A DNA stretch of 21,397 nucleotides from a virus, in IMG/VR virus record IMGVR_UViG_3300031758_000673, positions 1-21,397 of that record; one strand, written 5' to 3'. The stretch's first letter is position 1. Every line of letters begins with the position of its first letter. The notes beneath the pieces are model-generated. The model saw only the letters and a program-made list of their open reading frames with translations, did no database searches and was not told the origin of the DNA. The position numbers and the translations under genes are program-made. Shown here piece after piece: positions 3,589 to 20,257 of the stretch.

Positions 3589-3741
3589 AAACTTTACATC
3601 TGTAGCGTTAATTTCATATCCAGAAATAGAAGCATTTGGCGCTATTCCTTCAAAGGTAGCAAAGGCTAAGTCCCAGGCGTTAGATACGGGAGGAGCTCCT
3701 CCTACCCCTGCTGCTGCTTGAAGAATATCTCTAACGCTCAT
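1339..3741 (-). CDS. Large repeat adhesin, 15 propeller-like units (tail fibre/receptor-binding candidate)
   Basis: This is an 800-residue protein built almost wholly of about 52-residue repeats. Each repeat has the pattern F-K-x-D-G-T-K-M-Y-V-x-G, then D-x-V-x-Q-Y-x-L-S-T-A-W-D-V-S-T-A-S-Y, then S-V-x-x-Q-E-x-x-P. I count 15 D-G-T-K-M-Y-type starts from residue 52 to 780. The last repeat stops after its first half (WQFTIS at the C-terminus), and the missing half is present at the N-terminus (NAWDLAFATF, residues 21-30), as in beta-propellers closed by a 'velcro' blade. The first 20 residues (MSVRDILQAAAGVGG) look like a short virion-attachment segment. The start overlaps the stop of the preceding fibre gene (TAATG), so translation is probably coupled. 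The likely role is a virion surface adhesin; no enzymatic motif is seen. Whether the units form two rings or one open array cannot be told here. Confidence 0.8.
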   Translation of the reverse strand: MSVRDILQAAAGVGGAPPVSNAWDLAFATFEGIAPNASISGYEINATDVKFSSDGTKMYVLGDQRDAVLQYNLSTPYQPSTAVFPRKNVSAEEINPTGVEFKPDGTKMYVIGSTGDDVNEYDLSTAWDVTTASYVQNFSVSAQAGTSPAKVRFKDDGTKMYVLSSSNDEVYQYSLSTAWNVSTASYDSVSLSVTSQEATPRGLFFGDSGTKMYIVGEVNDTVYQYTLTSGWDLSTASYASLSFSVTSQETLPTDVFFKSDGTIMYVIGTLGDDVNQYALSSAWNVSTASFTKVSLPSFNTWFGEINPNGVYIKPDGTQLYVVGSTTDSVWQQSMSSAWDVATLIPGLYVNAQESAPQGLAFKNDGTKMYIVGTSNDTVYQYSLATAWDVLTATYDSVSFSVATQEITPNGITFKTDGTKMYIIGSSGDDVNEYNLSTAWNVSTASFVQVFSVFAQTGTTPAKVEFKDDGTKMYVLSNSNNTVFQYTLSSAWDVSTASYDSVSYAFAAINGENNSSGLAFADSGTKMYIIGSVTDRVWGFALGTAWNLATTNSYYRSVAAEENGPRSVTFKPDGTEMYVLGETGDDVNQYSISTAWQVQTASYVRVFGVGTQTGAAPAQVQFKDDGTKMYVLSNTNDAIYQYSLSTAWNISTATYDTVSFSVTSQESLPRGMFFGDAGTKLYVVGTTNNTVYQYTLSSAWDLSTASYASKSFSVATQETSPYAVFIGNNGSAMYIVGFANDTVYQYTLATPWDVSTASYATKSFAVGVYETNPSAVWFKDDGLSFYVVGSANDVVWQFTIS

Positions 3742-6371: not shown

Positions 6372-7799
6372 TTAAATCTCCTTTAAGTCAGCACAAGAAG
6401 CGCCGGTTTCCAAAATATGACGGAGTAATCCACCCCGAATGTCTAACTCAATTTCATCACCTAGCATCTTAATTAAATCAATAAACTCTTGAGCCTGAGA
6501 AATCATCCATGGGTTGCAATAAAATATTTTGCCGCCCACATTGACCGGAACTACGGGTTGACCGTCGTTTTCTTTTTGTTCGTAAGCATGATGTTTATCG
6601 CCATCAAGACATGAATCACAACCGAACACATGAAATCTCTTAAAGCCCAACATCCTAAACAAAGGTATTGTTCTTAACAACACAGTAGAACCACCAGGAA
6701 CAGGGTACCAACGTTCATACTGACTTGCCAAGATTTCATTTAGGATTTCGGTGCTGGTGTGCCAGATGTATGTCTGTTCTTTAGGCATCTTGGCAAACAC
6801 ACTTGGGTGGCATTGAGAGGCAATAAAATACTTACAGTCAGGAACTATTGGATCTACAAAACGATTGTTGTGCTCTTGAGCATCAACCATAACCATCGCA
6901 GATGGTGTAATACCATTATCAATACAATATCTGTAAGCATTGTTAATGGTGATTAATTTGACCCCATCTTCCCGAAGTTTGCGAATTTCTTCGATACTAT
7001 TAGCTAAAGATGGACCACCACCCACAATCATAACTTCTACATTATTGGTTGGATATGGTTGAACTTGTTGAAATCCTAAAGATATGTTGTGTTTTACTTG
7101 CTCTTTAATTTTTTCTTCTGAAGTATTTAATACACCACAATCAACAATCTCATTACCAGACGCCCATGCAGAAACATAAAAGTAAGCATAGCCAGACTCT
7201 TCTTTTGACCAGTGGATCAAACAATTTCTATCATTAAATTTTTTAAGCCACCAATCATAAGAATGAACACTTAGATGCAGTTTATGCCCTAACAACTTAC
7301 CCATCTGATCATCTTCCGTAGAAATCTGAAAAAAAACATGATGGCAAGCTGCTAAACAATTATCTAAAACCCGATCCACATGATGCGGTCGAATGTGTTC
7401 CATAACATCTGTACAAAATCCATATGCCGCTTTAATTTCTAACGGCTGAGATAAATCATGCTCTTTGAAACGCATTACATGGCTTTGGGTTTCTAGCATT
7501 GGGCGAATGTCAGGATCTAAGCAGTTGTCTGCAAAATCCACCATCGTTACATCCAACCCACCAAAGAAGGCTAAGTTCAAAGCCCCCCTGCCAGTACCAC
7601 ATCCTAGATCAATAACAGACGCACCACGAGGGGGTTTAGCTTGGGCTAAAAATTCAAACGCCGCCCCTTCGCCTGGAGCTACTTTTCTGTACTCAGGACG
7701 TTCCCACATCATTCTATAAAGATCTTTTTCTAGTGGTCGATCACTAGAAATTCTAACTTGTGGAGCCTTGCCTATAATTCCGTTAAATGAAGTAGACAT
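6372..7799 (-). CDS. SAM methyltransferase fused to DUF115/Maf-like domain
   Basis: This is a 475-residue two-domain protein. Residues about 45-215 form a class I SAM-dependent methyltransferase: motif I V-I-D-L-G-C-G-T-G-R-G at 62-72, the acidic strand end T-M-V-D-F-A at 85-90, and D-V-M-E-H at 131-135. Residues about 253-455 match the DUF115 (MptE/Maf-like) fold: V-M-I-V-G-G-G-P-S-L at 256-265, M-V-D-A-Q-E-H at 304-310, P-G-G-S-T-V at 368-373 and F-G-C-D-S-C at 392-397. DUF115 proteins include flagellin-glycosylating Maf enzymes, so sugar transfer or glycan handling is plausible, but the substrate is unknown. A 78-nt AT-rich gap precedes it and its ribosome site is weak (AAAGAA), unlike its tightly packed neighbours. 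It may be an acquired accessory gene that modifies the virion or host surface. Confidence 0.85.
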   Translation of the reverse strand: MSTSFNGIIGKAPQVRISSDRPLEKDLYRMMWERPEYRKVAPGEGAAFEFLAQAKPPRGASVIDLGCGTGRGALNLAFFGGLDVTMVDFADNCLDPDIRPMLETQSHVMRFKEHDLSQPLEIKAAYGFCTDVMEHIRPHHVDRVLDNCLAACHHVFFQISTEDDQMGKLLGHKLHLSVHSYDWWLKKFNDRNCLIHWSKEESGYAYFYVSAWASGNEIVDCGVLNTSEEKIKEQVKHNISLGFQQVQPYPTNNVEVMIVGGGPSLANSIEEIRKLREDGVKLITINNAYRYCIDNGITPSAMVMVDAQEHNNRFVDPIVPDCKYFIASQCHPSVFAKMPKEQTYIWHTSTEILNEILASQYERWYPVPGGSTVLLRTIPLFRMLGFKRFHVFGCDSCLDGDKHHAYEQKENDGQPVVPVNVGGKIFYCNPWMISQAQEFIDLIKMLGDEIELDIRGGLLRHILETGASCADLKEI

Positions 7800-8555: not shown

Positions 8556-8696
8556 TTAGCCTAGCTTCTTCGACGAGTTAGTGCCCTTAGTAGCCGCTCC
8601 TGTGCCACGCGTTTTAACAGTCTGCGTATTAGGGACATTATTTGGGTAACCATTCTTAGTATCCTTTACAGGTACTGGGGTAGGCATCTTGTTCAT
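8556..8696 (-). CDS. 46-residue basic microprotein
   Basis: This was read directly from the minus strand: 46 codons starting MNKMPTPVPVKDTKNG and ending in K-T-R-G-T-G-A-A-T-K-G-T-N-S-S-K-K-L-G. It starts by sharing bases with the stop of the upstream microprotein gene (TAATG) and its own stop abuts the next ATG, so it sits in a perfect translational relay. The R-G-T-G-A-A-T-K-G segment is vaguely like the R-x-D-G-x-A-x-K-G-K motif of the larger microprotein island and is a sequence I recall from other aquatic phages. No enzymatic feature is present. It is probably a small virion or nucleic-acid-associated protein, function unknown. Confidence 0.72.
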   Translation of the reverse strand: MNKMPTPVPVKDTKNGYPNNVPNTQTVKTRGTGAATKGTNSSKKLG

Positions 8697-8872
8697 TATC
8701 GCCCCCGCCCAGCTTTTTTCTGCATCATGACCTTAGGCATACCCTTGCCCATCTTTTTCTCCGTCATGGACTCTTTGGGCGGCTTAAGCATACCACCTTT
8801 TTTCAGGCCCATGCGATGCATTTTTGAACTGCCCTCGTGTTTCTTAATAGCCTCGGCAATTTTGTTAGCCAT
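8696..8872 (-). CDS. 58-residue Lys/Met-rich microprotein
   Basis: This was read directly from the minus strand: MANKIAEAIKKHEGSSKMHR and on for 58 codons, ending A-G-R-G-R. It is extremely rich in Lys, Met and Gly with no Cys, Trp, Phe or Tyr, so it is probably flexible and nucleic-acid binding or virion-internal. A strong ribosome site (AGGAGA) precedes the ATG, and the stop overlaps the next start (TAATG). It lies between two structural genes. I know no defined domain for it. Confidence 0.75.
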   Translation of the reverse strand: MANKIAEAIKKHEGSSKMHRMGLKKGGMLKPPKESMTEKKMGKGMPKVMMQKKAGRGR

Positions 8873-9312: not shown

Positions 9313-10035
9313 CTAAGAATTAGTTAAATATGGAGAATAAGTGCTTGAGTTTGCCAGCATATAAGGAAACATTGTTTGAGTGATGTACGTAATTTCTAAT
9401 GGTGTAAGAGATGAAGAAAGAGATCCTGTAACAAAACGCAACATATCTAAAGCATCAGAAGAACTAACTATACCGTCTCCATTAATATCACCAAGTCTTC
9501 TATCATTAACAAATGTATTTCTAAACAATGCTGTTGGTATTGGTTGCGATTGAACGGCTGCTTGCAATAAAGCATTTGGTAACAATGATTGTGTCACCAC
9601 CATTCCATCTAAAACCACACCAACCGGAAACAATACTGCAAATGGAGCCACAATTGCTAAATTATTTGGTGTAAGCCCATCAGCATTAGCTCTAGCACCA
9701 CCAACCGGTGCCCATCCCCATTGCACAATTCTACTACCGCCAGATGGGTCGCCGCTACCTAATGGGCCAGCATTAGACTCAATTTGCAAGCCTGTGTAGC
9801 CAGCTTGTCGATAAGTAGTATCTGGGCGTGGATTACGAATAGCCTGCGGGTCATTTACCGGATACATGCCCAACTGCAACTGTGGCTGATCTGGTTCCCA
9901 ACATGTAGGGCAGACAAGAAGATTTACGTTCTTTGTCTTAATAACGATGCTTTTAAGCTGTTTTAGCTTATAGCGAAAGCCACACCTATCGCACTGCGAT
10001 ATAGCCCATTTACCAGAGGCAAACTTGGTAGGCAT
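9313..10035 (-). CDS. Zinc-ribbon plus dockerin-loop virion-associated protein
   Basis: This 240-residue protein has two recognisable modules. Residues 15-45 form a four-cysteine zinc ribbon (C-D-R-C at 15-18 and C-P-T-C at 42-45) inside a conserved start (MPTKFASGKWAI and later W-E-P-D-Q-P-Q-L-Q-L-G-M-Y-P-V) that I recall from other uncultured aquatic phages. Residues 183-194 form a perfect dockerin/EF-hand-type calcium loop, D-I-N-G-D-G-I-V-S-S-S-D, followed by A-L-D-M-L-R-F-V-T-G, as in one type I dockerin repeat. The middle (about 85-165) is low in charge and hydrophobic. The start overlaps the stop of the adaptor-like gene (TAATG). Zinc and calcium binding are inferred from ligand spacing; the role in the particle is unknown. 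Confidence 0.75.
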   Translation of the reverse strand: MPTKFASGKWAISQCDRCGFRYKLKQLKSIVIKTKNVNLLVCPTCWEPDQPQLQLGMYPVNDPQAIRNPRPDTTYRQAGYTGLQIESNAGPLGSGDPSGGSRIVQWGWAPVGGARANADGLTPNNLAIVAPFAVLFPVGVVLDGMVVTQSLLPNALLQAAVQSQPIPTALFRNTFVNDRRLGDINGDGIVSSSDALDMLRFVTGSLSSSLTPLEITYITQTMFPYMLANSSTYSPYLTNS

Positions 10036-10778
10036 TAATAGAACATCTCACGCGGCGCTAACCGCAGAGAAGCCTTCTCACGATCTTCAGACGATGCCAA
10101 CGCCCACTGCTCTTCATACGACATCTTGAGCATTTCTAACCGTGGGAGCGCCTCAGGAATCTTCATGGACAAGTAATATGCCAGCCCAGCCACTAAGCAA
10201 GGCAACAGACGGAATGGAATGTCTTGTGTGTCTACCCCGTTACCCGCGTCCTGTAAGCGACGCAGTCTCCAGTAGACATAGGTGTAAAAGTTACTCTGGT
10301 CTGGCGCAGGCCAGACATTAATATTTGGCGGGTTTACCCCAGTAGAAGTGTTAGTCGTATTAGGCTGGTTACCGTTTATGGGGTATGTAGCACCCGACTG
10401 CCGGTTAATCCAGACCTGAATGGGTCGGCCTTGTGCGTTCTTATTCGGTATCGTGGCATAAGTAGAAACGCTAATGCGGCTGATGTTGATGTCAGTCTGC
10501 TCAGCGCCTGTCTGAGTCCGTATCACACTATCCAGAAGGTCAATCGTATCTACAGGCAGAGCGTAGGTAATCTGCCCCTGCACCATTGGAATCGACCCCT
10601 GCTCAATAGTCCAGAGGTTAATACCACGGTTAGCCCACTCAATAGTCAGCAGGTTCAGAGATCTACGCGCTGTACGGAACTCATAACCCGTGCGTACCTC
10701 TAAGCCACAACGCTCAAAAGCTTCTTCAAGAAGCTCATTGAAGTCTAGATTAAAGCTAGTGGTGCCTGAAGTGGTCAT
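10035..10778 (-). CDS. Phage adaptor / head-completion-like protein
   Basis: This 247-residue protein contains F-N-E-L-L-E-E-A-F-E-R-C-G-L-E and R-T-A-R-R-S-L-N-L-L-T-I-E-W-A-N-R-G-I-N-L-W-T in the first 60 residues, W-P-A-P-D near 155-160, and a C-terminal helix around L-P-C-L-V-A-G-L-A-Y-Y-L. This helical N-terminus, beta middle and helical C-terminus match P22 gp4/SU10-type adaptor proteins. The gene overlaps both neighbours by single bases (TAATG), joining the microprotein island to the tail genes. With the protein at 7878-8555 there are two adaptor-like genes, so one may be a tail-tube or nozzle-side component. The assignment is moderately secure. Confidence 0.65.
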   Translation of the reverse strand: MTTSGTTSFNLDFNELLEEAFERCGLEVRTGYEFRTARRSLNLLTIEWANRGINLWTIEQGSIPMVQGQITYALPVDTIDLLDSVIRTQTGAEQTDINISRISVSTYATIPNKNAQGRPIQVWINRQSGATYPINGNQPNTTNTSTGVNPPNINVWPAPDQSNFYTYVYWRLRRLQDAGNGVDTQDIPFRLLPCLVAGLAYYLSMKIPEALPRLEMLKMSYEEQWALASSEDREKASLRLAPREMFY

Positions 10779-11122
10779 TAAACCATCCGTCCTTTGGTTT
10801 TGCCTTTACGAGCGCAGCCATCTGCTCTTTTAGACGCGGAAACCGTACCGCCTTTTTTAAATCTTTTGGTGACTTTAATCCCGCCGCCTGTTAATTCTCT
10901 GTTTGTTTTACCTTCTCTAGGCTTGAACGCCTGTCCTTCAAGATACGCTTCAACATCCAAATCATCATTAACCTGTTTTCTGCCAGACAATCTGCCGCCC
11001 AAAAAAGAACCGTATTGATTTGAAGCGCCAGACCCACGCGCTAGTACGTTTTTCATACCAGACTTAGCCATGAGTTCGGCGTCCCTCATTTCACGCTCTA
11101 ATTCTTTATCAGTGATTGTCAC
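10778..11122 (-). CDS. 114-residue basic protein with K-R-A-D-G-C-A / K-G-K-T-K-G C-terminus
   Basis: Its N-terminal 25 residues are acidic and helical (MTITDKELEREMRDAELMAK), the middle is Gly/Ser-rich, and the last 30 residues are strongly basic: K-R-F-K-K-G-G-T-V, then S-A-S-K-R-A-D-G-C-A-R-K-G-K-T-K-G-R-M-V at the very end. The same terminal signature ends the protein at 12164-12718 and occurs inside the one at 12003-12167. It starts with an ATGA overlap to the dockerin-like gene and its stop overlaps the adaptor start (TAATG). I recall this C-terminus in other aquatic phage small proteins but no function for it. Nucleic-acid binding or packaging into the virion is a hypothesis. Confidence 0.72.
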   Translation of the reverse strand: MTITDKELEREMRDAELMAKSGMKNVLARGSGASNQYGSFLGGRLSGRKQVNDDLDVEAYLEGQAFKPREGKTNRELTGGGIKVTKRFKKGGTVSASKRADGCARKGKTKGRMV

Positions 11123-11376
11123 TTCATTCCCCTCAAGGTCTTAGCCAGACGCGCTCTCTGTCCTAGCTTACCCGGTGCTTTTGTAGCCCGATCTAGCATC
11201 TTAGCGGGAATCTTTTTCTTACCCTTGATGCCAAGCTGCTCACGCAACGCACCCGGCTTCTTGATGGCTTCTTTTATAAAACCACCCTTCTTTTTACCTA
11301 CAACACCACGGCCCATAAGCACGTCGGCTTTGGTTACTTCACCGTCTTTGTTTAGGTCTGGGAACGATTTAGCCAT
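11119..11376 (-). CDS. 85-residue protein: dockerin-like calcium loop plus basic module
   Basis: Residues 7-18 read D-L-N-K-D-G-E-V-T-K-A-D, a textbook 12-residue calcium loop of the dockerin/EF-hand type (ligand positions 1, 3, 5 and 12 all acidic or Asn). The rest (about 30-85) is a basic module with F-I-K-E-A-I-K-K-P-G-A-L-R and K-A-P-G-K-L-G-Q-R-A-R-L-A-K-T-L, a block I recall from other aquatic phage proteins. So it appears to be a small fusion of two modules. The start overlaps the upstream stop (TAATG) and the end overlaps the next gene (ATGA). Calcium binding is inferred from the loop alone. Confidence 0.75.
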   Translation of the reverse strand: MAKSFPDLNKDGEVTKADVLMGRGVVGKKKGGFIKEAIKKPGALREQLGIKGKKKIPAKMLDRATKAPGKLGQRARLAKTLRGMK

Positions 11377-11615
11377 TATCGGAACCTCGCTGTCTTTGCT
11401 GCAATAGATTTTGGTTGTTTAACGAACTGCTTTCCAGAAGCTTTACCAGCTCTTTTCGCTCTAGTCGTCGCTGCATACTCAGCTGGAGATAGTGACTTGA
11501 TCGCCTTCTCTGGGAGGTAACGTTCGCCAGTATCGGAAGACGGTTTCCCACTCTTAGTTCTCCACTTTTGTGCTGTCCAGTCTTTCAAGCTCTGCTGCGG
11601 CTTCTTTAGCGGCAT
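11376..11615 (-). CDS. 79-residue basic conserved protein (K-P-Q-Q-S-L-K-D-W-T family)
   Basis: It begins MPLKKPQQSLKDWTAQKWRT, then has S-G-K-P-S-S, T-G-E-R-Y-L-P, S-L-S-P-A-E-Y-A-A-T-T-R-A-K-R and K-Q-F-V-K-Q-P. I recognise this conserved block from marine viruses, including a domain of large DNA viruses of eukaryotes that I believe is catalogued as DUF5872, where it follows a Q-W-S-A-R-K-A-Q-like block. Here the Q-W-S-A-R-K block is in the separate gene at 11715-12002. The function is unknown. Its first 62 nt overlap the putative gene at 11554-11718 in another frame. The family number is from memory and should be verified. Confidence 0.78.
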   Translation of the reverse strand: MPLKKPQQSLKDWTAQKWRTKSGKPSSDTGERYLPEKAIKSLSPAEYAATTRAKRAGKASGKQFVKQPKSIAAKTARFR

Positions 11616-11718
11616 CTCGCTCAGTCCTTTTTCTCTTCCGGTACACTTCCGCAGCTTTTAAAACCCACGAAAACACATTTCCGTCTCTCTTCGGGTCGTA
11701 CACCGGCGCCCGAATCAC
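11554..11718 (-). CDS. Putative 54-residue basic helical protein, GTG start, overlapping two genes
   Basis: A GTG at 11716-11718 overlaps the TGA of the upstream gene (GTGA) and opens 54 codons to a TAA at 11554-11556. The product starts (M)IRAPVYDPKRDG and continues N-V-F-S-W-V-L-K-A-A-E-V-Y-R-K-R-K-R-T-E-R, then an Ala/Glu/Lys helix. Its composition (aromatic core followed by an amphipathic, charged helix) looks protein-like, and it fills what would otherwise be a gap of about 100 nt in a region with no other gaps. The GGGGGG and GGA bases just upstream could serve as a ribosome site. Against it are the rare start codon and a 62-nt overlap with the next gene. No family is recognised. Confidence 0.5.
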   Translation of the reverse strand: MIRAPVYDPKRDGNVFSWVLKAAEVYRKRKRTERDAAKEAAAELERLDSTKVEN

Positions 11719-12002
11719 TTATATCCACCCCCCTTAGCTTTGTACTGCTTAGCCAAGAGTTGTGCTTTTCTTGCTGACCACTGACCCGCAGCAGTCCCTT
11801 GAGTCGCGGAGCCTTTAATCTTTTCAAAAAGACTCTTACGCATTCCCGGCTTCGTATAAGTGCCTGCTTCATTGACACGAGATTTAACCTTTCCGCCTTC
11901 AGCATACTGCGTGAAGTTATTAGGGTTATCCCTACGAGTGGCTTTTTTAGCCTTGGGCATTTTAGATGGGCGAATATCACCCATCCCGCGTGAAGGTCTC
12001 AT
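11715..12002 (-). CDS. 95-residue basic conserved protein (Q-W-S-A-R-K-A-Q-L motif)
   Basis: It starts MRPSRGMGDIRPSKMPKAKK. The conserved part has Y-A-E-G-G-K-V-K-S-R-V-N-E-A-G-T-Y-T-K-P-G-M-R-K (about 33-56), then G-Q-W-S-A-R-K-A-Q-L-L-A-K-Q-Y-K-A-K-G-G-G-Y at the C-terminus. I recall this block in many aquatic phages and, with the K-P-Q-Q-S-L-K-D-W-T block, in proteins of giant viruses. The start directly follows the stop of the 54-residue gene at 12003 and its TGA overlaps the GTG of the next putative gene. It is strongly basic and probably binds nucleic acid or forms part of the virion interior, but no function is established to my knowledge. Confidence 0.78.
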   Translation of the reverse strand: MRPSRGMGDIRPSKMPKAKKATRRDNPNNFTQYAEGGKVKSRVNEAGTYTKPGMRKSLFEKIKGSATQGTAAGQWSARKAQLLAKQYKAKGGGYK

Positions 12003-12167
12003 TTAGCACTTCCCGCCGCCACGCATTTTGGTCTTCGGCATACCGCCGTTCATCATCTTGACCATCTTGCCTTTGGTCTTGCCCTTAGAAGCCACACCGT
12101 CACGGCTAGGAGCAGCGGTCTTAACAGCGCCCATCTTGGAAGCGCCCATGCCAGTCATCTTTTTCAT
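12003..12167 (-). CDS. 54-residue Lys/Met/Gly-rich microprotein with K-G-K-T-K-G-K-M-V motif
   Basis: This was read directly from the minus strand: MKKMTGMGASKMGAVKTAAP, then S-R-D-G-V-A-S-K-G-K-T-K-G-K-M-V, then K-M-M-N-G-G-M-P-K-T-K-M-R-G-G-G-K-C and stop. The start overlaps the previous stop as ATGA and the stop abuts the next ATG. The internal motif is the same as the C-terminal signature of the two neighbours at 12164-12718 and 10778-11122. It has no acidic residue except one Asp, and a single Cys as its last residue. Its net charge is extremely positive. Function unknown. Confidence 0.78.
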   Translation of the reverse strand: MKKMTGMGASKMGAVKTAAPSRDGVASKGKTKGKMVKMMNGGMPKTKMRGGGKC

Positions 12168-12718
12168 ACCATTTTCCCTTTCGTTTTACCCTTCGTTGCA
12201 CAGCCATCGGCACGCTTGGAAGCGGAAGACTTGACCATGCCACCAGACTTATAGCTAGTACGCTCTGGAACTCTCAAACCACGTACAAGACGACGCGCCT
12301 TATCCAAAGGGGACCCTTTTTCTGGGGCAGCATCAGGTTTGATATCAGCCCTTTTCTGTTCAGGTAGGCTTGCCCGTAAGTTACGTAGTTTCTCTGCAGG
12401 GGTCATACGCTTAGGCGTAGCATCAGCTGCTTTAGAAGCCGTACCACGCTTAGCCAGACGTGATGTTTCATCGCCTGTATCAGTTACTTTAGGTGCGGCT
12501 GCTTTAGGCTTAGCCTTAGGCGCAGTGGCCTTAGGGGTAGCTTTCTCAGCCGGTTTACTAGTACGGGCTACAAAATCTTTGATACTTTCAGTAGTACCAG
12601 GCTCATCGCTCATCTGACTACGCTCATACTCTTTCTTTTCGCGCTCTTCAGCGGCTAAAAGATTTTTGGCGTCATCAGAGTCTGCGTATCCGCCTTCAGA
12701 AAATTTACGCTTTTTCAT
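12164..12718 (-). CDS. 184-residue Lys/Ala/Pro-rich basic protein with K-R-A-D-G-C-A C-terminus
   Basis: It begins MKKRKFSEGGYADSDDAKNL, has a charged helix (about 10-45), then a long Ala/Pro/Lys stretch with repeated A-(T/P)-K-A and P-K-A-K-P-K-A-A-A-P-K (about 57-80) resembling histone H1-like or linker sequences. A second basic region holds T-P-A-E-K-L-R-N-L-R-A-S-L. It ends G-G-M-V-K-S-S, then A-S-K-R-A-D-G-C-A-T-K-G-K-T-K-G-K-M-V. It is probably disordered and DNA-binding or scaffold-like. The start has a good ribosome site (GAGGAAAG) and overlaps the upstream gene by ATGA. Homology to histone-like proteins is compositional only, not shown. Confidence 0.75.
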   Translation of the reverse strand: MKKRKFSEGGYADSDDAKNLLAAEEREKKEYERSQMSDEPGTTESIKDFVARTSKPAEKATPKATAPKAKPKAAAPKVTDTGDETSRLAKRGTASKAADATPKRMTPAEKLRNLRASLPEQKRADIKPDAAPEKGSPLDKARRLVRGLRVPERTSYKSGGMVKSSASKRADGCATKGKTKGKMV

Positions 12719-12963
12719 ACTTTCCTCTGCCCTAAGGCGTCAATTTTGTCCTCTAACCGTTTAAACCCGCTGTCAAAATGTTCACGGATTTTCTCTAGGT
12801 CTGCCCTTACTTCTGCACGTGTGATGTGATCCCGCGCAACTTCTTCACGCGTTCTGTTAAGCAGAATGCTGATGCGTTGAAGCTCATCGAACTTGCCCTT
12901 AAGCAACATTCCCATCACCGCCACTATCGCGCTCAGCGCGATATTCCAAAGCATCATTTCCAT
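12715..12963 (-). CDS. 82-residue membrane-anchored coiled-coil protein (holin-like candidate)
   Basis: Residues about 4-22 form one hydrophobic segment (L-W-N-I-A-L-S-A-I-V-A-V-M-G-M-L-L). This is followed by a charged helix, about 25-78, with heptad-like spacing and T-R-E-E-V-A-R-D-H-I-T-R-A-E-V-R-A-D-L. Small phage proteins with this layout are common and some are called holins, but a single membrane segment with a long cytoplasmic coiled coil could equally be a membrane-anchoring or virion protein. It starts directly after the TAG of the preceding gene without a clear ribosome site, so translation is probably coupled. It is the only clear membrane protein in the window. Confidence 0.68.
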   Translation of the reverse strand: MEMMLWNIALSAIVAVMGMLLKGKFDELQRISILLNRTREEVARDHITRAEVRADLEKIREHFDSGFKRLEDKIDALGQRKV

Positions 12964-13218
12964 CTAACATTTCCATGCGCGCAAAGATTTATTGATGCGG
13001 CTGTTCGGATCATTGGCAGTCTTAGCAGAGGTAAGCTTCTTCTTCATGCCTTTCATCCTGGCGCAGAACGAGTCACGCCTTTTACCGCCTTCTGGCTGCG
13101 GGGCTTTTAATCCCGGCTTACCTGGATTGGCAGCGTTATAGGAAGCACGCCCCTTGGCGTTGAGACCACCTTTGGGGTTTTTGCCTTCTTTGCGCTGCCA
13201 AGCAGGTGTCTTAGCCAT
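12964..13218 (-). CDS. 84-residue basic conserved protein (K-N-P-K-G-G-L-N-A-K-G-R family)
   Basis: It begins MAKTPAWQRKEGKNPKGGLN, continues A-K-G-R-A-S-Y-N, then P-G-L-K-A-P-Q-P, R-R-D-S-F-C-A-R-M-K-G-M-K, and ends L-R-A-W-K-C. This conserved set is one I recall from many marine and freshwater phages, I believe as the DUF6321 family, with unknown function. Two Cys remain, in F-C-A-R-M and at the C-terminus. It overlaps the previous gene by 8 nt and abuts the next. It opens the basic microprotein island, so it is likely to act with its members. The family number is from memory. Confidence 0.8.
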   Translation of the reverse strand: MAKTPAWQRKEGKNPKGGLNAKGRASYNAANPGKPGLKAPQPEGGKRRDSFCARMKGMKKKLTSAKTANDPNSRINKSLRAWKC

Positions 13219-13522
13219 AGATCAATGTCATAGAAGTGGTGTTGGTCACAGTCCCATGCAGGCCAGACTGACAAAGGATTCCTTCGCCTGGCATGGGGAT
13301 GATCGTATAACCAGCCGTAGTACTAGCCGCCGTGTTGATAGTGGCTAAAATCTTGCCACTACCACCACCTTCACGGATAACAACAGAACCAGCACTACCA
13401 CCATTAATAGCGTAAATAGTCTTAATTCGCGCTCGGTCAATGGCGTTGTTGTTCTGGTCCAGAAAGTTACCCGTGGACTCTAGCGGCTTAGTCGCTAGTA
13501 CGTCATATTGCATAGTAGGCAT
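13211..13522 (-). CDS. 103-residue beta-rich putative virion protein
   Basis: This small Gly/Thr/Ser-rich protein starts MPTMQYDVLATKPLESTGNF, with I-K-T-I-Y-A-I-N-G-G-S-A-G-S-V-V-I-R-E-G-G (about 34-54) and a C-terminal strand pattern T-V-T-N-T-T-S-M-T-L-I-Y-G. Alternating strands suggest a beta sandwich or decoration protein. A near-consensus ribosome site (AGGAGG) precedes the ATG, which fits an abundant structural product. It lies two genes after the capsid gene, and its end overlaps the basic-protein gene by 8 nt. No named family is recognised. Confidence 0.7.
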   Translation of the reverse strand: MPTMQYDVLATKPLESTGNFLDQNNNAIDRARIKTIYAINGGSAGSVVIREGGGSGKILATINTAASTTAGYTIIPMPGEGILCQSGLHGTVTNTTSMTLIYG

Positions 13523-13534
13523 TTGAGCCTCCTA

Positions 13535-14023
13535 TTAGACGGACTGTTGACCGACCAGCGGATCAGTGACGTAGTAAATGATATAGCCAGAGGCCGTACC
13601 AGCACCGGAAGATCCGTCAGTTACAGTGATGTAGACATTCTCGTCTGCATCCATAACCAAACCAAGATCATTACCAGCAGTGGTCGCCGTGCCAACAGTC
13701 ACAGTACCAATAGCATTGGTGTAACCATCGACAAGACCGTCGGTATCAGACGCACTGTTAGAAACAGTAGCCCAACCAAGGTCAAAAGAACCAGAAGCTC
13801 CGCTAACAGCGCTGACAACCACAGACATAACCACAGCGCCAGCAGGCAGGATTAGGTCAGGGGCACCAGAAACCGAAGAAATTTTGGCATTAGTGGTAGT
13901 AGCAGGACCAACATCGTCAATATAAAACTGGGCGGTCATAACCATGGAACCGCAGTAAGCTTGCCGTGTGGAATCGGCACCCGAGCGCCAAATGGACTGG
14001 GTGGTAGACGGACGTACACTCAT
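13535..14023 (-). CDS. 162-residue beta-rich putative capsid-associated/decoration protein
   Basis: This protein starts MSVRPSTTQSIWRSGADSTR and then has a long Ala/Gly/Val/Thr-rich beta region with D-L-I-L-P-A-G-A-V-V-M-S-V-V-V (about 56-70), F-D-L-G-W and D-A-D-E-N-V-Y-I-T-V-T-D-G. The composition and position right after the capsid gene and its terminator suggest a decoration or minor head protein. The start has GAGGA at the right distance, after a leader of about 100 nt carrying an inverted repeat, so this gene probably begins a separately controlled part of the transcript. No specific family is recognised. Confidence 0.68.
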   Translation of the reverse strand: MSVRPSTTQSIWRSGADSTRQAYCGSMVMTAQFYIDDVGPATTTNAKISSVSGAPDLILPAGAVVMSVVVSAVSGASGSFDLGWATVSNSASDTDGLVDGYTNAIGTVTVGTATTAGNDLGLVMDADENVYITVTDGSSGAGTASGYIIYYVTDPLVGQQSV

Positions 14024-14161: not shown

Positions 14162-15070
14162 TTAAGCGCCGGGCGAGCCGAACATACCCAAGGGGTCCGA
14201 GAACCCAAATGAGTAACGCTCACGAGCCTTGTAACGTACGTTGCCTGTATCGAAGTCCCCGTCCATGGACTGAGACAGCGGAGTACGAACAAAGTGCTTC
14301 ATACCGTTAGGCACGTCTGTGCAGAGGAACCATGCGTCGGTGTCCGTCAGCCAGTGATTAACGGAATACCCGTCAGGAATCGAGCCGTTATTACGCAGCG
14401 CATTGATGTCGTTATCAGCCGTACCTACACGCTTTTCAGTCTCAAGCAGGCGGGTTGCAACGAACTGCAATGACGGAGGAATAATCAGCTTGCGGGGTTT
14501 AGCCGCAATCAGCAGACCACGCTCATCGGTCCATGCAGCGATCTGAATAACGGCGGCTTCAAGCGAAGTCTCGTTAAGATCAGCAGGAGTAGCAGGCTCG
14601 TTAGAGTTGACGCCACCAGAGACAAGGGGGTGATCCGTTGCAAACAAGGCTTTACCGTCACCACCAGCATAGGCAGAGTCAAACCCGTTGTTTAGCACGG
14701 CTGCAGCCTTAACTTGCTTGGTATAAGCCATAGCGCGAGCCAAAGACTTGGTGTAACGCGAAGACAGGGAGTCATAGAGGTTGTCCTCAATAGCCTCTTC
14801 CGTCAGCGAAAAACCAAGAGCAATAGTCTCGTGCGTATAGCGTGCCGTCCAAGCCTCTTGCGCGTTATCGTAGGCAATCGCACTGCCTTCGTTCTTCACC
14901 GGTGCGGCGGAGAAGCCAGACAGTTTGGTTTCCTCTTCAAACGAACGCTCGGAGGTCTCGGTCTCGTAAATCTCCTTATGCTCTTCGCCGTAGCGTGCAT
15001 ATTCCATACCGAACAGAGCGTTCAGACCAGGAAGGAGTTCTTTAAGTAGTTGTGCGCGTGAAATAGCCAT
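14162..15070 (-). CDS. Major capsid protein (HK97 fold, Mu gpT-like)
   Basis: This 302-residue protein has the pattern of the Mu-like major head subunit (gpT) group of HK97-fold capsid proteins: E-T-I-A-L-G-F-S-L-T-E-E-A-I-E-D-N-L-Y (about 81-99), A-L-F-A-T-D-H-P-L-V-S-G-G (141-153), L-E-A-A-V-I-Q-I-A-A-W-T-D-E-R-G (P-domain region), I-I-P-P-S-L-Q-F-V-A-T-R-L-L (about 196-209) and a C-terminal F-G-F-S-D-P-L-G. The length fits a mature-type capsid protein without a long cleaved delta domain. It has the strong ribosome site TAAGGAG and a terminator right after it, both fitting high expression. A scaffold-like gene lies three genes upstream; no prohead protease gene is seen. The gpT resemblance is from motif memory. 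Confidence 0.88.
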   Translation of the reverse strand: MAISRAQLLKELLPGLNALFGMEYARYGEEHKEIYETETSERSFEEETKLSGFSAAPVKNEGSAIAYDNAQEAWTARYTHETIALGFSLTEEAIEDNLYDSLSSRYTKSLARAMAYTKQVKAAAVLNNGFDSAYAGGDGKALFATDHPLVSGGVNSNEPATPADLNETSLEAAVIQIAAWTDERGLLIAAKPRKLIIPPSLQFVATRLLETEKRVGTADNDINALRNNGSIPDGYSVNHWLTDTDAWFLCTDVPNGMKHFVRTPLSQSMDGDFDTGNVRYKARERYSFGFSDPLGMFGSPGA

Positions 15071-15778: not shown

Positions 15779-16228
15779 TTAAATGCCTTTGCCAAACGAT
15801 GTCGTGGATCTGCGCTCTTTAAATAGCGGCATCCTCGGATCGTTATCTTTCATAAAGCTGCTGTCTACAGCGTCCATATTGTCCTTGGTCGCTTTGGCGA
15901 AATGCGCCGCACGTTGTTCCACGAACTCTTCTGGCATTTTGCAGAGTAACAGCCCAGCGACTTCGATGTTGTCTTTGAACCTGCTGTTAGAGTCTACGAG
16001 AAACTTAAACTGGGGTTGCTCCTCAATACGCACTGGCTCCCAGCCTTCTCTAAACTTAGCAGAGACGTTTTTAGCGTCTAACTGCCCACCTGTAGCTACA
16101 CGAATCCAACGATACGCATAACCAGATTGTTTAACGGGCTGCGGTAGCGTTTCTGGGCGCTGCCACTGCTTAGGTCTCTCAGATTTTTCTCTACTCTCAA
16201 GTTCGCGTGCAAGTCTATTTTCAGCCAT
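15779..16228 (-). CDS. 149-residue conserved phage head-region protein, function unknown
   Basis: Its N-terminus is charged (MAENRLARELESREKSERPK) and Trp/Pro-containing. The conserved core is G-Y-A-Y-R-W-I-R-V (about 36-44), F-R-E-G-W-E-P-V, G-L-L-L-C-K-M-P-E-E-F-V-E-Q-R (about 92-106) and a C-terminal M-D-A-V-D-S-S-F with F-K-E-R-R-S-T-T-S-F-G-K-G. I recognise this as a recurrent gene between scaffold and capsid in aquatic phages, with no assigned function. It overlaps the end of the scaffold-like gene by 8 nt and carries GGAGAAAC before its start. It may take part in head assembly. Confidence 0.75.
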   Translation of the reverse strand: MAENRLARELESREKSERPKQWQRPETLPQPVKQSGYAYRWIRVATGGQLDAKNVSAKFREGWEPVRIEEQPQFKFLVDSNSRFKDNIEVAGLLLCKMPEEFVEQRAAHFAKATKDNMDAVDSSFMKDNDPRMPLFKERRSTTSFGKGI

Positions 16229-17174
16229 TTTGTTTCTCCAGTCGTATCATTTCTTTCGCATACTGCTCAGGCGTTAACCCAAGCCTCTTCGCAATTGCTA
16301 ACTGCGATTGCTTTAGCACTATCCTCTTGGCAGAAGTGCTTCTTGATACCGGAGCCACAACATTAGCCGGTTTCATCTCAGTGCGCTGAGCAGGCTTGCC
16401 GCCCCTGTCAGACGTTTCTACTTCTTCATCTTCCCCGAAGTAATCAGAGAAGCGTTTTCGCATGGTCTTATCGACCGTATTCCAATATTCGTCAGTACCA
16501 ACGTAACCTGCGCCGTACTGTTTTTCTAATTTCTGATGCAACCCTAGCGCTGTTGCAGTCATCTCTTCGTCCTGCCCGAACCACGTATTTTTGCTACGCC
16601 ATTCAGAGGTCTTACGATCTAACTGCGGGGGCTGAGGTTGCGCCCTTTGTTCATTTATATCAGGAGTTTGCTGGGTTTGTAAAGGGGGTCTGTATCCTTT
16701 TAGACTCTCCAGCTTAAAATTCACAGAGTTAAGCTTAGCCTGAGCATCTACTAACTTGTCGGAATCTCCAGCCTCATAAGCCTCTTTATAGGCTCGTTTA
16801 GCCATCTCCAACTCAATTTCTGCAGCGCTAGTAGCCGTCATTACCAGGGATTTCTCCCCTTCACTCAGCCTATTTCTGAGAGCTTTATTCTCTTCTAGGG
16901 CTTTTTGAGCCATAGCTAGGGCTTCTTGCTGCTCCCTCAGTGCCCGTTCTTTCTCCCGCCGCTCGTCATGCCAGACCTTTTTCATCTGCTTCAGACGAGT
17001 TTTTACCTTGTCAGAGTAGTCTTCTAGCTCATCTTGCTCTAGCTCTTCAACCACTTCTTTTGGTAACGGCTGACGCCCACGATCCTCTGCAGGTGTGTCG
17101 TCTTCAATCTCTAACTCAAAATCCTTCTCTTCTGCTACTGGTTCCTGCTCTTTGATGTTTTCAGTATCTGCCAT
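16221..17174 (-). CDS. Scaffolding-like protein
   Basis: This 317-residue protein has the architecture of phage scaffolds. The N-terminus is strongly acidic (about 1-50, with E-E-K-D-F-E-L-E-I-E-D-D). A long charged coiled-coil follows (about 55-155), then a Pro/Gln-rich hinge (P-P-L-Q-T-Q-Q-T-P, about 162-180). A W-x-x-x-N-x-W-F-G segment comes next, and then a basic C-terminal helix containing K-R-I-V-L-K-Q-S-Q-L-A-I-A-K-R-L-G-L-T-P-E-Q-Y-A, typical for binding the capsid subunit. It has the ribosome site AAGGAG. Position between portal and capsid genes supports the role. It has no protease motif, so it is probably removed intact rather than as a self-cleaving scaffold. Confidence 0.8.
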   Translation of the reverse strand: MADTENIKEQEPVAEEKDFELEIEDDTPAEDRGRQPLPKEVVEELEQDELEDYSDKVKTRLKQMKKVWHDERREKERALREQQEALAMAQKALEENKALRNRLSEGEKSLVMTATSAAEIELEMAKRAYKEAYEAGDSDKLVDAQAKLNSVNFKLESLKGYRPPLQTQQTPDINEQRAQPQPPQLDRKTSEWRSKNTWFGQDEEMTATALGLHQKLEKQYGAGYVGTDEYWNTVDKTMRKRFSDYFGEDEEVETSDRGGKPAQRTEMKPANVVAPVSRSTSAKRIVLKQSQLAIAKRLGLTPEQYAKEMIRLEKQNG

Positions 17175-17184
17175 TTGTTACTCC

Positions 17185-17592
17185 TTATTTGCGACTGATG
17201 CCGCGAGGATCTTCTACTACACCCTCAACAGAATCATCGTTAATAATCCGAAACTCGCGCCCGTGAATCTTTAGACGAGTGCCAGCATGAGGACGAACTA
17301 ATACAAAATCACCCTCTTTGCACCATGGGCCTGACGGAAACCTAGCTAAGTCTTTATAACAATCTGGACCCATTTTCATAACAAACAGAACCGTAGTCAG
17401 CAATTCTTCATGCTGCATGGTTATGTCTGCCTTGACTAGACCACTGTCAAACTTGTCCTCAATCTCTGGAATCCCACACAGGATGCGGTATCCAGACGGG
17501 TCTGGTACTTGCCTAGCCTTATCTTCTGCGCTTGCTGGTAATACTGTTGCTTCGTTCGGGTCGCTTGTAGAACCGATTAAGATTTCACTCAT
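17185..17592 (-). CDS. GroES-like co-chaperonin (Cpn10 fold candidate)
   Basis: From the ATG at 17592 this is 135 residues; a longer start at 17625 would overlap the previous gene by 41 nt and looks less likely than the 8-nt overlap chosen. After an unstructured 30-residue N-terminus, P-S-G-Y-R-I-L (32-38) begins a GroES-type barrel. D-S-G-L-V-K (49-54) is placed like the GroES mobile loop. C-K-E-G-D-F-V-L-V-R-P-H-A-G-T (91-105) and I-H-G-R-E-F-R-I-I-N-D-D-S-V-E-G-V-V follow the GroES pattern of V-K-V-G-D-x-V, then a glycine turn, then a basic patch, then the x-D-I-L-A-I-V end. Phage co-chaperonins such as T4 gp31 help GroEL fold the capsid protein, and its place between portal and scaffold genes fits. 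The call is from pattern comparison by eye. Confidence 0.7.
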   Translation of the reverse strand: MSEILIGSTSDPNEATVLPASAEDKARQVPDPSGYRILCGIPEIEDKFDSGLVKADITMQHEELLTTVLFVMKMGPDCYKDLARFPSGPWCKEGDFVLVRPHAGTRLKIHGREFRIINDDSVEGVVEDPRGISRK

Positions 17593-17779
17593 CTGAGGTT
17601 TCCAACCTTTCTGCTGTTTCAGCAATTAAGTTATTAGCCATTAATAGGCCACGCACTACACCAGCGGAGTATTTGTATTCCGCCAGATCTTTTGCCTTTC
17701 CATCTCCTAAATCTTCAATAATACGAAGACGTTCCTTCTGGAGTTGTTCAGACAAATACTTCAATACATCTTTGCTCAT
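17585..17779 (-). CDS. 64-residue helical protein of unknown function
   Basis: This small, charged, mainly helical protein starts MSKDVLKYLSEQLQKERLRI and has A-K-D-L-A-E-Y-K-Y-S-A-G-V-V-R-G-L (about 29-45), a pattern I recall from small genes next to portal genes in other aquatic phages (K-D-x-A-E-Y-K then G-x-x-R-G-L). No function is established. It begins right after the portal stop (adjacent positions) and its own end overlaps the GroES-like gene by 8 nt, so translation is probably coupled. Confidence 0.72.
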   Translation of the reverse strand: MSKDVLKYLSEQLQKERLRIIEDLGDGKAKDLAEYKYSAGVVRGLLMANNLIAETAERLETSDE

Positions 17780-20257
17780 TTACACTCCTTGTTCAGGTTT
17801 CTGATTTTGTTGCTGAGATAACTGTTGAGCCATCTGCACGCCTAGGCGTGTTCCTTCTATTTCCTGCTTTACTGCCTCAACACTTTCTTGGAACTGCTGT
17901 TGAGTCTGATCTTTGGCGATCTGTGCGCCTAACCGTGCGCCATCAACCTCGGCCTGGGTCTGAATCCGCATCTGCTCAGTCTGTATTTGTGCGGCCTTAA
18001 GCTGTGCGTCCATCTGATCTTTCTGTGCCTTGCGCTGAACTTCTGCCTGTTTAATCTGCAACTCTTGTTGTTGCATTTGTACAAGCGGGTCTTGCGCCTG
18101 TTGTTGGGCTTGCTGCTGCGCCATCATTGCCTGATTAGCCTGTAAAAGCTTCTGTGCGCCTGCGGCTGCAAGGCGAGAAATCTCAACTTCCATGTCTTCA
18201 GGCATCTCTTCGTTCGGCCCTGGGTAAGGAACGCCAATCTTTTCTTCAACATTCTTGCGGTATTGGAAAGCAAAGTGCTCCATGATGTGCGCCATAAATG
18301 CCGCGCCTACCTGCTGAGCTTGAGGGTTCTGGCCCAAAATCTGTGACGTTATCGGATCTTGCAGAGCCGTCATGTGGACTGTGATGTGGGCTGCGTGGTC
18401 CTGATAGATAAACGCTTTTACGGGTTTACCCGTAAACATATCCATGTTCTCAGACACAGGATCTGTGGGCTTCTGGTCATCTTCCGTCGGTACGAGCTTA
18501 GCTGCATTCTTGATACCCAATACTTCTAGCATCTGGCGGTGCAACAACGGTAAGTCATACAACTGCGGTGCCTGCTGCGCTAACTGCAACACCGCCTGAT
18601 ACTGCACGACTTTTTGCGACATTGTTGCTGCGTTGGGGTCAGAGACAGGTATGACCTCCACCATGTCGTAGTCAGAGCGCTTAGCAGGTGGTAGCGCATC
18701 GGTCGGCTCGTAGGCGTACTCTTCAGGCGTGTAGTCACGGATGATGTTCTTAAGGAGCTTAAACTCCTGCTTCATCGCGTAGTGGATGCGAGCCTGAACT
18801 GCTGACATAACCTTCAGCGTGCGCTCTAATATGGCAAGCGTTGTGCCTACCGGAGACTGAGCGCTCATATCTGAGACTTTAAGGTCGGCTGCACTAGCAA
18901 ACCTACGGCCCTCGTCGATGATCTTATCCATCAACCCAGCCAACACCTGTGACGGCTCTTTGTAGGGCAGTGCCATGATGTTGTCTTTTATGGTGCCAGA
19001 GGCTACGTCCACATCTCGCCACTCTGCCGGTGCAATCGGCGTGTCGTCGCCCTTAACTCGCAGACCCTTGGTTTTAAAGCCACCGGGCAAGTTAGACAGC
19101 GTGCCAGCATCTACTAACTGACGCAGTATCGACGTACCAGACTTGGCAAATGCGCCAATCAAGTGGATTAGACCAAACGCATAGAAGCCAAACCCAGGTA
19201 TGTACGGGTAATGTACGAAGTGCTGACGCTTCTGCTTTAGCTCATCTTCTGGGTGCCAATTACGGCGTATGGCTAGGATCTCTTGCGTATGCTTGTCGAT
19301 AGTAACGACGTAAGGTAGTGCAATGCCTGTCGGCTTACCTTTCTTGTCTTTGTCCTCGTAGCCAGGGAGGTCGAGGTCCACGTGCATCTCAAGGATCTTG
19401 TATCGGTCATCTGAAGATGCCTTAAATCCCATCTTCTCAGCAATTTTCTTCTCGACATCGTCAAACGTATCTACAGGGTCACCAAGCTCTACATCCCTAT
19501 AAAAACCGGCGACTTGAAGCTTTCTCATCTCGTTAGGTGTCTTACGCATCACATGCGTGACGCGCTCGGCTGTCTCTAGACTTGAAGCGCCGTATGGCAC
19601 CACGACATCTTCTGCCGGTACATAGATCGAAGCCTGTCGATCCAAGTTAGGGTCAAAGTAGACCTTCTTAAACGCATTACCCGACAGCCCCAGACCCCAG
19701 AGCATCCGCTCATGCTCAGGCCGGTACTCAACCATCACTTCAGTCAACTCATAGTTCATGTCATCCTTGACACGCTGAGCTGCTTCTTCTTTCTCTCTAG
19801 TCTCAACCCCAATGATCTGAGTCTTTACAGGCCCAGCTGCAGGGAACGTTTCCATCATTGTCTCTGCTTGGAACCGCACTAATGATTCTGAGAGAAGTGG
19901 ATGGTACACACCACACGCACCGGGCCAAGGCTCTGTGCGTTCTTCGATCTTTAGCCCAAGAAGTTCTAGACCATCTACATACGTCTGCATCCAGTCTTTG
20001 CGGCTGGAGATGTCATCGTCAAAGTCACCAATAAGGTCAGAGGCAAGCTGTGTTAGCTCATCAGCCTCAATATACTCGGCAAGGTTAGCGTCAAAGTCAT
20101 CATCTGTCTCCTTACCTGGCTCTAGAATAATCTCTAGCCCACCGATCCCAATCTCTACGCGCTCAGGATCTTCGATCTCAATCTCTATCGGCGGCTCTTG
20201 TTCTACTTCATCAGTTAACCCAAGAGGGGCCGGGTTTAGGGCTTTCTCGATTGCCAT
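17780..20257 (-). CDS. Portal protein
   Basis: This 825-residue protein has an acidic N-terminus (about 1-70). Its core contains S-S-R-K-D-W-M-Q-T-Y (around 85-95), R-T-E-P-W-P-G-A-C-G-V-Y-H-P-L-L-S-E (about 111-128) and M-M-E-T-F-P-A-A-G-P, marks I recall from portals of large-portal podovirus-like phages. Further on are G-L-S-G-N-A-F-K-K-V-Y-F-D-P and V-P-A-E-D-V-V-V-P. A stem/wing region follows with R-R-F-A-S-A-A-D-L-K-V-S and G-T-T-L-A-I-L-E-R. From about residue 700 the tail is extremely Gln-rich, helical and coiled-coil-like, as expected for an extended crown or barrel. It lies between terminase and scaffold, with ribosome site AAGGA. It would form the dodecameric ring for DNA entry and exit at the capsid vertex. 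Confidence 0.88.
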   Translation of the reverse strand: MAIEKALNPAPLGLTDEVEQEPPIEIEIEDPERVEIGIGGLEIILEPGKETDDDFDANLAEYIEADELTQLASDLIGDFDDDISSRKDWMQTYVDGLELLGLKIEERTEPWPGACGVYHPLLSESLVRFQAETMMETFPAAGPVKTQIIGVETREKEEAAQRVKDDMNYELTEVMVEYRPEHERMLWGLGLSGNAFKKVYFDPNLDRQASIYVPAEDVVVPYGASSLETAERVTHVMRKTPNEMRKLQVAGFYRDVELGDPVDTFDDVEKKIAEKMGFKASSDDRYKILEMHVDLDLPGYEDKDKKGKPTGIALPYVVTIDKHTQEILAIRRNWHPEDELKQKRQHFVHYPYIPGFGFYAFGLIHLIGAFAKSGTSILRQLVDAGTLSNLPGGFKTKGLRVKGDDTPIAPAEWRDVDVASGTIKDNIMALPYKEPSQVLAGLMDKIIDEGRRFASAADLKVSDMSAQSPVGTTLAILERTLKVMSAVQARIHYAMKQEFKLLKNIIRDYTPEEYAYEPTDALPPAKRSDYDMVEVIPVSDPNAATMSQKVVQYQAVLQLAQQAPQLYDLPLLHRQMLEVLGIKNAAKLVPTEDDQKPTDPVSENMDMFTGKPVKAFIYQDHAAHITVHMTALQDPITSQILGQNPQAQQVGAAFMAHIMEHFAFQYRKNVEEKIGVPYPGPNEEMPEDMEVEISRLAAAGAQKLLQANQAMMAQQQAQQQAQDPLVQMQQQELQIKQAEVQRKAQKDQMDAQLKAAQIQTEQMRIQTQAEVDGARLGAQIAKDQTQQQFQESVEAVKQEIEGTRLGVQMAQQLSQQQNQKPEQGV

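Follow-up and report, generated by a model that had tools for sequence, protein, structure and literature searches.

A short C-terminal peptide common to many unrelated small basic proteins of one phage lineage: a possible head-loading tag

The 21,397 nt fragment of viral DNA analysed here (IMG/VR record IMGVR_UViG_3300031758_000673, positions 1 to 21,397), referred to throughout as the window, carries an island of small genes, three of whose products contain the same peptide motif. The motif ends the proteins encoded by 12164-12718 (SASKRADGCATKGKTKGKMV, then stop) and 10778-11122 (SASKRADGCARKGKTKGRMV, then stop) and is internal in the protein encoded by 12003-12167 (RDGVASKGKTKGKMV), as described in a first-pass annotation of the window. 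It is mainly a C-terminal tag, present on dozens of otherwise unrelated small basic proteins encoded beside the capsid gene in a large group of uncultured tailed phages. One C-terminal peptide is found on many unrelated bodies, is selected at the protein level and is gained or lost by the same body, and within a single phage lineage it occurs solely in an island next to the capsid gene. Our favoured reading, to which we assign a probability of roughly 0.5, is that the peptide acts as a linear tag for loading basic proteins into the phage head or anchoring them there. Such a tag would resemble the capsid targeting sequence (CTS) of phage T4, yet is C-terminal and non-homologous.

Both C-terminal copies in the window fit SASKRADGCAxKGKTKGxMV, a peptide of roughly 18 residues, and the consensus of the tag is [ST]ASxR[AG]DG[IC]Ax[RK]GKT[RK]G[KR]-hydrophobic-[VIC]-COOH. 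IMG/VR was scanned with a degenerate DNA pattern for DGxAxxGKTxG, with a scrambled pattern of the same content as the control. The motif was present in at least 120 stretches, as against one match to the scrambled pattern in the whole collection. The loci fetched from among the matches listed, many of which are fragments, contain 212 in-frame copies and 137 of these stop exactly three residues past the last glycine of the motif. As the DNA search pattern itself forces several residues, a position matrix trained on the tails of the pattern-found copies was then scored on held-out loci picked solely by their capsid gene. In the loci of the window's own lineage, defined by a capsid at least 85% identical to that of the window, 46 of 759 open reading frame (ORF) tails in the island were above threshold, with 0 of 3,029 other ORFs and 0 of 3,795 shuffled tails. 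The weakest match scored 23 bits and the best ORF outside the island -20. The results of both the scan and the held-out profile bear out the earlier view that the signature is not chance composition. The logo of the profile matches is [S/T]-x-R-[AG]-[DG]-G-[CI]-[AE]-x-[RK]-G-K-T-[RK]-G-[KR]-[MIFLY]-[VIC]. In all 43 capsid-selected copies, G, K, T and G occupy positions -7, -6, -5 and -3; in these copies positions -8, -4 and -2 are solely K or R, position -1 is hydrophobic and the last residue is mostly V, I or C. The tag is predicted to be disordered, with AlphaFold2 confidence values (pLDDT) of 51-57 over the tag of 12164..12718. Queries of the PDB with the tag profile and with the capsid, adaptor, neck and DUF6321 proteins returned nothing credible, tblastn searches of phage records with the short motif gave no matches, probably because of the low-complexity filter, and no papers came up in literature text searches for the motif string, for DUF6321 or for Pag-Yong1.

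It is the peptide that is under selection, since the two C-terminal tags of the window have 18 of 20 residues in common yet use the same codon for only 6 of those 18, with 41 of 60 bases identical. In 72 within-contig tag pairs, providing 912 columns with identical residues, the codon is the same in 53% versus 39% expected from the codon use of the contig, a rough expectation as codon use was taken from ORFs of all frames. Given this divergence of codons, the tag copies are either of long standing or maintained independently of one another, with conservation at the protein level, and DNA-level duplication was rejected as the source of the repeated tag. Of 17 positions, tags differ on average at 3.4 within a contig and at 5.3 between contigs (0/2000 shuffles). 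This is the similarity that a genome-specific partner would require, although common descent predicts it too.

When the N-terminal bodies attached to the tag were compared by BLAST, they fell into 91 clusters, including 72 singletons, a count that is somewhat inflated by low complexity. With about 90 body clusters, and with identical body types seen both tagged and untagged, the proposal made at first pass that the signature is a transferable module holds. For example, 11 of 101 DUF6321 proteins have the tag and the copy in the window does not. Over 56 of its C-terminal residues, the window protein encoded by 11119-11376 has 70% identity with a tagged relative from locus L027, and a body that is tagged in locus L025 has a different basic tail (SKGQGRVIRSKKTRIC) in phage DSL-LC04. 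In Planktothrix phage Pag-Yong1, a cultured phage with the tag, a 308-aa protein ends with GGMIGRDGCAKRGRTKGRFI. The DUF6321 protein of HTVC115P was considered as a tag carrier and rejected, as its reading frame shows no tag. Internal copies form a class of their own (MGxVKTAAPSRDGVAxKGKTKG[TK]MV), typically preceded by an N-terminal SKKQHNLM domain, and the 54-residue window protein 12003..12167 is a short member of this class without that domain. The SKKQHNLM domain (L125:847-1248, L110:357-830) is common to phiKZ gp165.1 and phiKZ-like jumbo phages and matches the N-termini of PHROG families whose annotation is head virion structural protein. A homologue in Klebsiella jumbo phage Eowyn is also annotated as a structural protein, and the SKKQHNLM domain may itself be a virion-targeting module.

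All of the likely genes in the window are on the minus strand, in the order terminase, portal, GroES-like co-chaperonin, scaffold-like, capsid, decoration-like genes, microprotein island, adaptor-like, more neck genes and fibres. The window capsid is 71% identical to that of Pag-Yong1, and 63-67% identical to those of phage 023Pt_psg01, phage DSL-LC04 and Pelagibacter phages HTVC023P and HTVC027P. The gene order in Pag-Yong1 and DSL-LC04, where capsid, cement or minor capsid, and adaptor roles are annotated, is the same as in the window, which therefore has the portal-GroES-scaffold-capsid-cement-adaptor order of this type of podovirus head module together with a homologous capsid. In loci that span both the capsid and adaptor genes, 72 of 73 tag copies are located between the two and all are on their strand. 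In each of the 16 records searched whole, a single island no longer than about 1.6 kb contains all the copies. Of 126 tagged loci, 122 have one or more core genes of this phage lineage; among the other four, three are short stretches and the last is a probably chimeric contig. Based on the profile, a C-terminal tag is present in 31 of 44 own-lineage islands, 12 of 47 Pag-Yong1-like islands and 1 of 51 DSL-LC04-like islands. The DSL-LC04 sister lineage has kept a basic island in which, apart from this one case, the tag is absent. In these DSL-LC04-type loci (L268-L347), the capsid gene is followed in 36 of 40 by a family with the N-terminal sequence MAGRGMGAATRGGG (MAGRGMG[AC]ATRGGG), and 13 have a C-terminal KGRAMKKGK motif (KTADAKGRAMKKGK). 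Tag presence tracks similarity of the capsid, scaffold and portal (area under the curve, 0.86-0.89) above that of the island genes 11715 and 11376 (0.57 and 0.61). Motif and cluster are both conserved in related phages, and so the non-conservation that the first-pass annotation had named as evidence against its proposal did not occur. Its statement that the signature is found in other aquatic phages is supported, but these belong to one capsid lineage, mostly aquatic as judged from the hosts and sources of annotated relatives, and not to aquatic phages generally. A scan of GTDB gave 55 pattern matches, with convincing tag ORFs in six loci alone (L133, L141, L157, L167, L169 and L187). All six are contigs of metagenome-assembled genomes (MAGs), most of which carry the same phage genes, and the remaining matches were rejected as mostly chance. 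At 165-2132 of locus L169, a Patulibacter MAG contig, the tag is in frame with an apparent bacterial membrane protein near the contig end, a fusion that is probably an assembly chimera.

The island itself conforms to the initial description of eight or nine tiny, mostly basic genes between the head and neck genes. There are nine, on the minus strand from 13218 to 10778, of which eight encode proteins with an isoelectric point (pI) of 9.5-11.0, the exception being 12715-12963 (pI 8.1, not basic). The N-terminal bodies have a median charge of +6, with 9% not positive, and the capsid protein is acidic, with a pI of 4.8. Other than the DUF6321 and SKKQHNLM bodies, Pfam, PHROG and NCBIfam provided no credible family for the tagged proteins. 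A pair of glycines is present within 13 residues ahead of the tag in 181 of 182 tagged proteins, and many have a recurring N-terminal MKxKxKRFxxGG, as at the start of the protein encoded by 12164-12718, plus repeated [FYM]xxGG elements. These GG and [FYM]xxGG elements could possibly be a spacer, a docking site or a cleavage site.

DUF6321 (PF19846) links the island indirectly to virions. It is, above the Pfam cut-off, the C-terminal domain of cyanophage S-CREM2 gp137 (L427:15050-16522; record 108049-109521), and S-CREM2 gp137 was detected in caesium chloride (CsCl)-purified virions with only four unique peptides (PMC10665884, Table 3). The protein encoded by 12964-13218 in the window belongs to this family of cyanophage and pelagiphage proteins, and some copies in the lineage are tagged. 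In PHROGs, DUF6321 is often the C-terminal module of longer proteins. It differs from the tag in being a folded-looking domain of 84 aa (pLDDT 80), for which Foldseek gave no match to the model (best E 7.9).

A peptide that is short, anchored at the carboxyl end, disordered and common to many unrelated proteins in a genome is built as one would expect of a linear signal for targeting or docking. The position of the island in the structural gene run, the tracking of capsid, scaffold and portal by the tag, the DUF6321 protein detected in virions and the precedent in T4 favour loading or anchoring in the head as its function. The phage proteins recruited by the tag would be small, basic and disordered and would form a set that changes, all of its members docking on one shared partner in the forming head, such as the inner face of the capsid, the scaffold or the portal. 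In this way they would come to lie inside the virion, either packaged or anchored, and may be ejected along with the DNA, possibly serving as basic filler or DNA-contact proteins, or as hypervariable ejected effectors. It is plausible, as initially suggested, that the island proteins are virion-internal, DNA-condensing or ejected, with indirect support from the virion-detected DUF6321 protein and from the PHROG matches of the SKKQHNLM domain. We propose, more tentatively, a C-terminal virion-loading code in which one 18-residue phosphate-loop-like peptide of this lineage would load an open-ended, fast-exchanged set of basic proteins that are delivered to the host, with any protein fused to the tag being packaged.

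The T4 CTS is present on the internal proteins IPI, IPII and IPIII, variable basic proteins that are recruited to the prohead and ejected into the host; it is N-terminal, 10-19 residues long and cleaved by the gp21 prohead protease (PMC9026906). The tag is, similarly, a short peptide common to divergent small basic proteins of one phage group, but it is C-terminal in the majority of copies as noted above, is unrelated in sequence, has no protease seen nearby and has a targeting role that is putative. Encapsulin targeting (cargo-loading) peptides are short, C-terminal and present on different cargoes that are loaded into HK97-fold shells (PMC8346489). The phage tag is also a short linear C-terminal peptide, but encapsulin cargoes are folded enzymes in bacterial compartments, whereas the phage tag is attached to disordered proteins, is unrelated in sequence and has a putative receptor.

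The main rival explanation, which we regard as rather improbable, is that the tag is a nucleic-acid (phosphate) binding tail and that no protein receptor is involved, the proteins condensing or coating the packaged genome by direct contact. Tags and bodies are highly basic, K and R are freely interchanged at -8, -4 and -2, and the tag conforms to the Walker A (P-loop) pattern GxxxxGK[ST]. GxxxxGKT is present in 180 of 182 copies versus 1.2% of shuffles, a difference partly forced by the search pattern, and with G(-12) and GKT invariant in 43 of 43 capsid-selected copies a phosphate-binding nest is conceivable. In the tag, however, this pattern is located 5-13 residues from the C-terminus in a region predicted to be disordered, and no match to a P-loop nucleoside triphosphatase fold or family was found in Pfam, NCBIfam or the PDB. 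Charge-based DNA binding also needs neither the conserved D/G pair nor the hydrophobic V/I/C carboxyl end, and the C-terminal position of the tag is fixed. The hydrophobic carboxyl end and the conserved non-charged positions favour, but not conclusively, a protein partner. It is unlikely that the proteins act in the infected cell, as late regulators or inhibitors of host factors, with the tag a localization or stability signal there. Hypervariable bodies without known domains do resemble arms-race proteins, but the island is within a run of structural genes, capsid to neck, on the same strand, tag presence follows the virion genes and a DUF6321 relative has been found in virions. Slightly less likely again is an anchor that holds the proteins on the capsid exterior or neck, as decoration or plug, rather than inside. 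The island does directly follow the decoration-like genes, ahead of the adaptor gene, but strongly basic disordered bodies are better suited to a DNA-filled interior, and in both DSL-LC04 and Pag-Yong1 the cement or minor capsid proteins are annotated as genes of their own. The excess of codon sharing within contigs (0.53 vs 0.39) might be taken to indicate that the motif is a functionless by-product of DNA-level recombination or duplication, or of low-complexity drift. With the window copies so much less alike in bases than in residues, with conservation across many unrelated contigs and with no match in the ORFs elsewhere, this is very improbable.

Several observations also weigh against a head-loading tag. 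Internal copies have 10-13 or more residues after the motif, which shows that the motif does not in every case make use of a free carboxyl end, and 13 of 44 (~30%) own-lineage, capsid-selected islands have no C-terminal copy by profile, so that the tag is not strictly essential. The basic residues alone could bind DNA, and common descent alone may account both for the co-segregation with structural genes and for the likeness of tags within a contig. When genes were ranked by co-occurrence with the tag, no one partner was singled out. No prohead protease was recognized in the 21-kb window, an incomplete genome, so that a cleaved signal of the T4 type is not indicated. No virion proteome of any tagged phage was found, and we therefore infer the virion location of the tagged proteins.

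Phage microproteins are often left without a known role because homology searches fail on sequences so short and variable. The shared tag is a handle that places about 90 body clusters under one testable hypothesis, and a simple pattern marks the members in uncultured phages. If the tag does direct head loading, it would be a C-terminal counterpart of the T4 CTS, would draw attention to protein sets that are delivered to the host when it is infected, and could serve to package reporters.

Table 1. Features of the window discussed in the text
Position	Strand	Feature
17780-20257	-	Portal
17185-17625	-	Phage GroES-like co-chaperonin, between portal and scaffold genes, kept across the lineage
16221-17174	-	Scaffold-like gene
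14162..15070	-	Major capsid protein; defines the tagged lineage; upstream border of the island region
13211-14023	-	Small decoration-like genes
13218-10778	-	Microprotein island
12964..13218	-	DUF6321 protein, untagged in the window; 71.3 bits vs cut-off 28.5; relatives bear the tag after a ...RINKSLRAWNC end
12715..12963	-	82-aa non-basic island gene; hydrophobic N-terminus then charged segment; in 41/126 tagged loci
12164..12718	-	184-aa disordered basic protein, pI 10.0, start MKKRKFSEGG, tag at end
12167..12226	-	C-terminal tag 1, SASKRADGCATKGKTKGKMV
12003..12167	-	54-aa protein, motif internal (MGAVKTAAPSRDGVASKGKTKGKMVKM...GGGKC)
12060..12116	-	Internal motif copy (RDGVASKGKTKGKMV)
11715..12002	-	95-aa basic protein, phrog_17747 (WSARKAQLLAKQYKAKGGGYK); present in 94/126 tagged loci
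11554..11718	-	Possible 54-aa gene, overlapping its neighbour; weak conservation, 3/126 loci; least certain island gene
11376..11615	-	79-aa basic protein, phrog_14910; also in HMO-2011-type phages
11119..11376	-	85-aa basic protein, without tag in the window
10778..11122	-	114-aa basic protein, GTG start, pI 10.1, tag at end
10781..10840	-	C-terminal tag 2, SASKRADGCARKGKTKGRMV
10035..10778	-	Adaptor-like neck protein; downstream border of the island
8696..8872	-	58-aa basic protein
8556..8696	-	46-aa protein with its own conserved C-terminal motif (RGTGAATKG), directly before the second neck gene

Outside the island, the first-pass annotation noted a related but weaker segment, RGTGAATKG, in 8556-8696. 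The segment is real and conserved, but is a separate motif that has only the core R-x-x-G-x-A-x-[KR]-G in common with the tag. In most of 80 loci a relative of 8556-8696 directly precedes the second neck gene, and the C-termini of these relatives are either ...RG[TN]G[AC]A[TI]KGxMARGPMA or ...RGTGAATKGTNSSKKLG (the ...TNSSKKLG type), each followed by the stop. Where the window has 8696..8872, the sequence ...GGKTNxDMxKxGRNxAKxxNQ is present in many relatives, and in a few the motif core occurs N-terminally.

Elsewhere in the window, 9313-10035 encodes a protein of the neck region whose N-terminus is cysteine-rich and resembles a zinc ribbon, and which also contains a dockerin-like segment (GDINGDGIVSSSDALDMLRFVTG). 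The 475-aa protein encoded by 6372-7799, within the neck and tail gene run, looks like a fusion of an S-adenosylmethionine (SAM) methyltransferase with a second domain. The 800-aa product of 1339-3741 has DGTKMYVxGxxxDxVxQYxLSTAWDVSTAS repeats that are propeller-like by eye, and is probably a tail fibre or host-binding protein.

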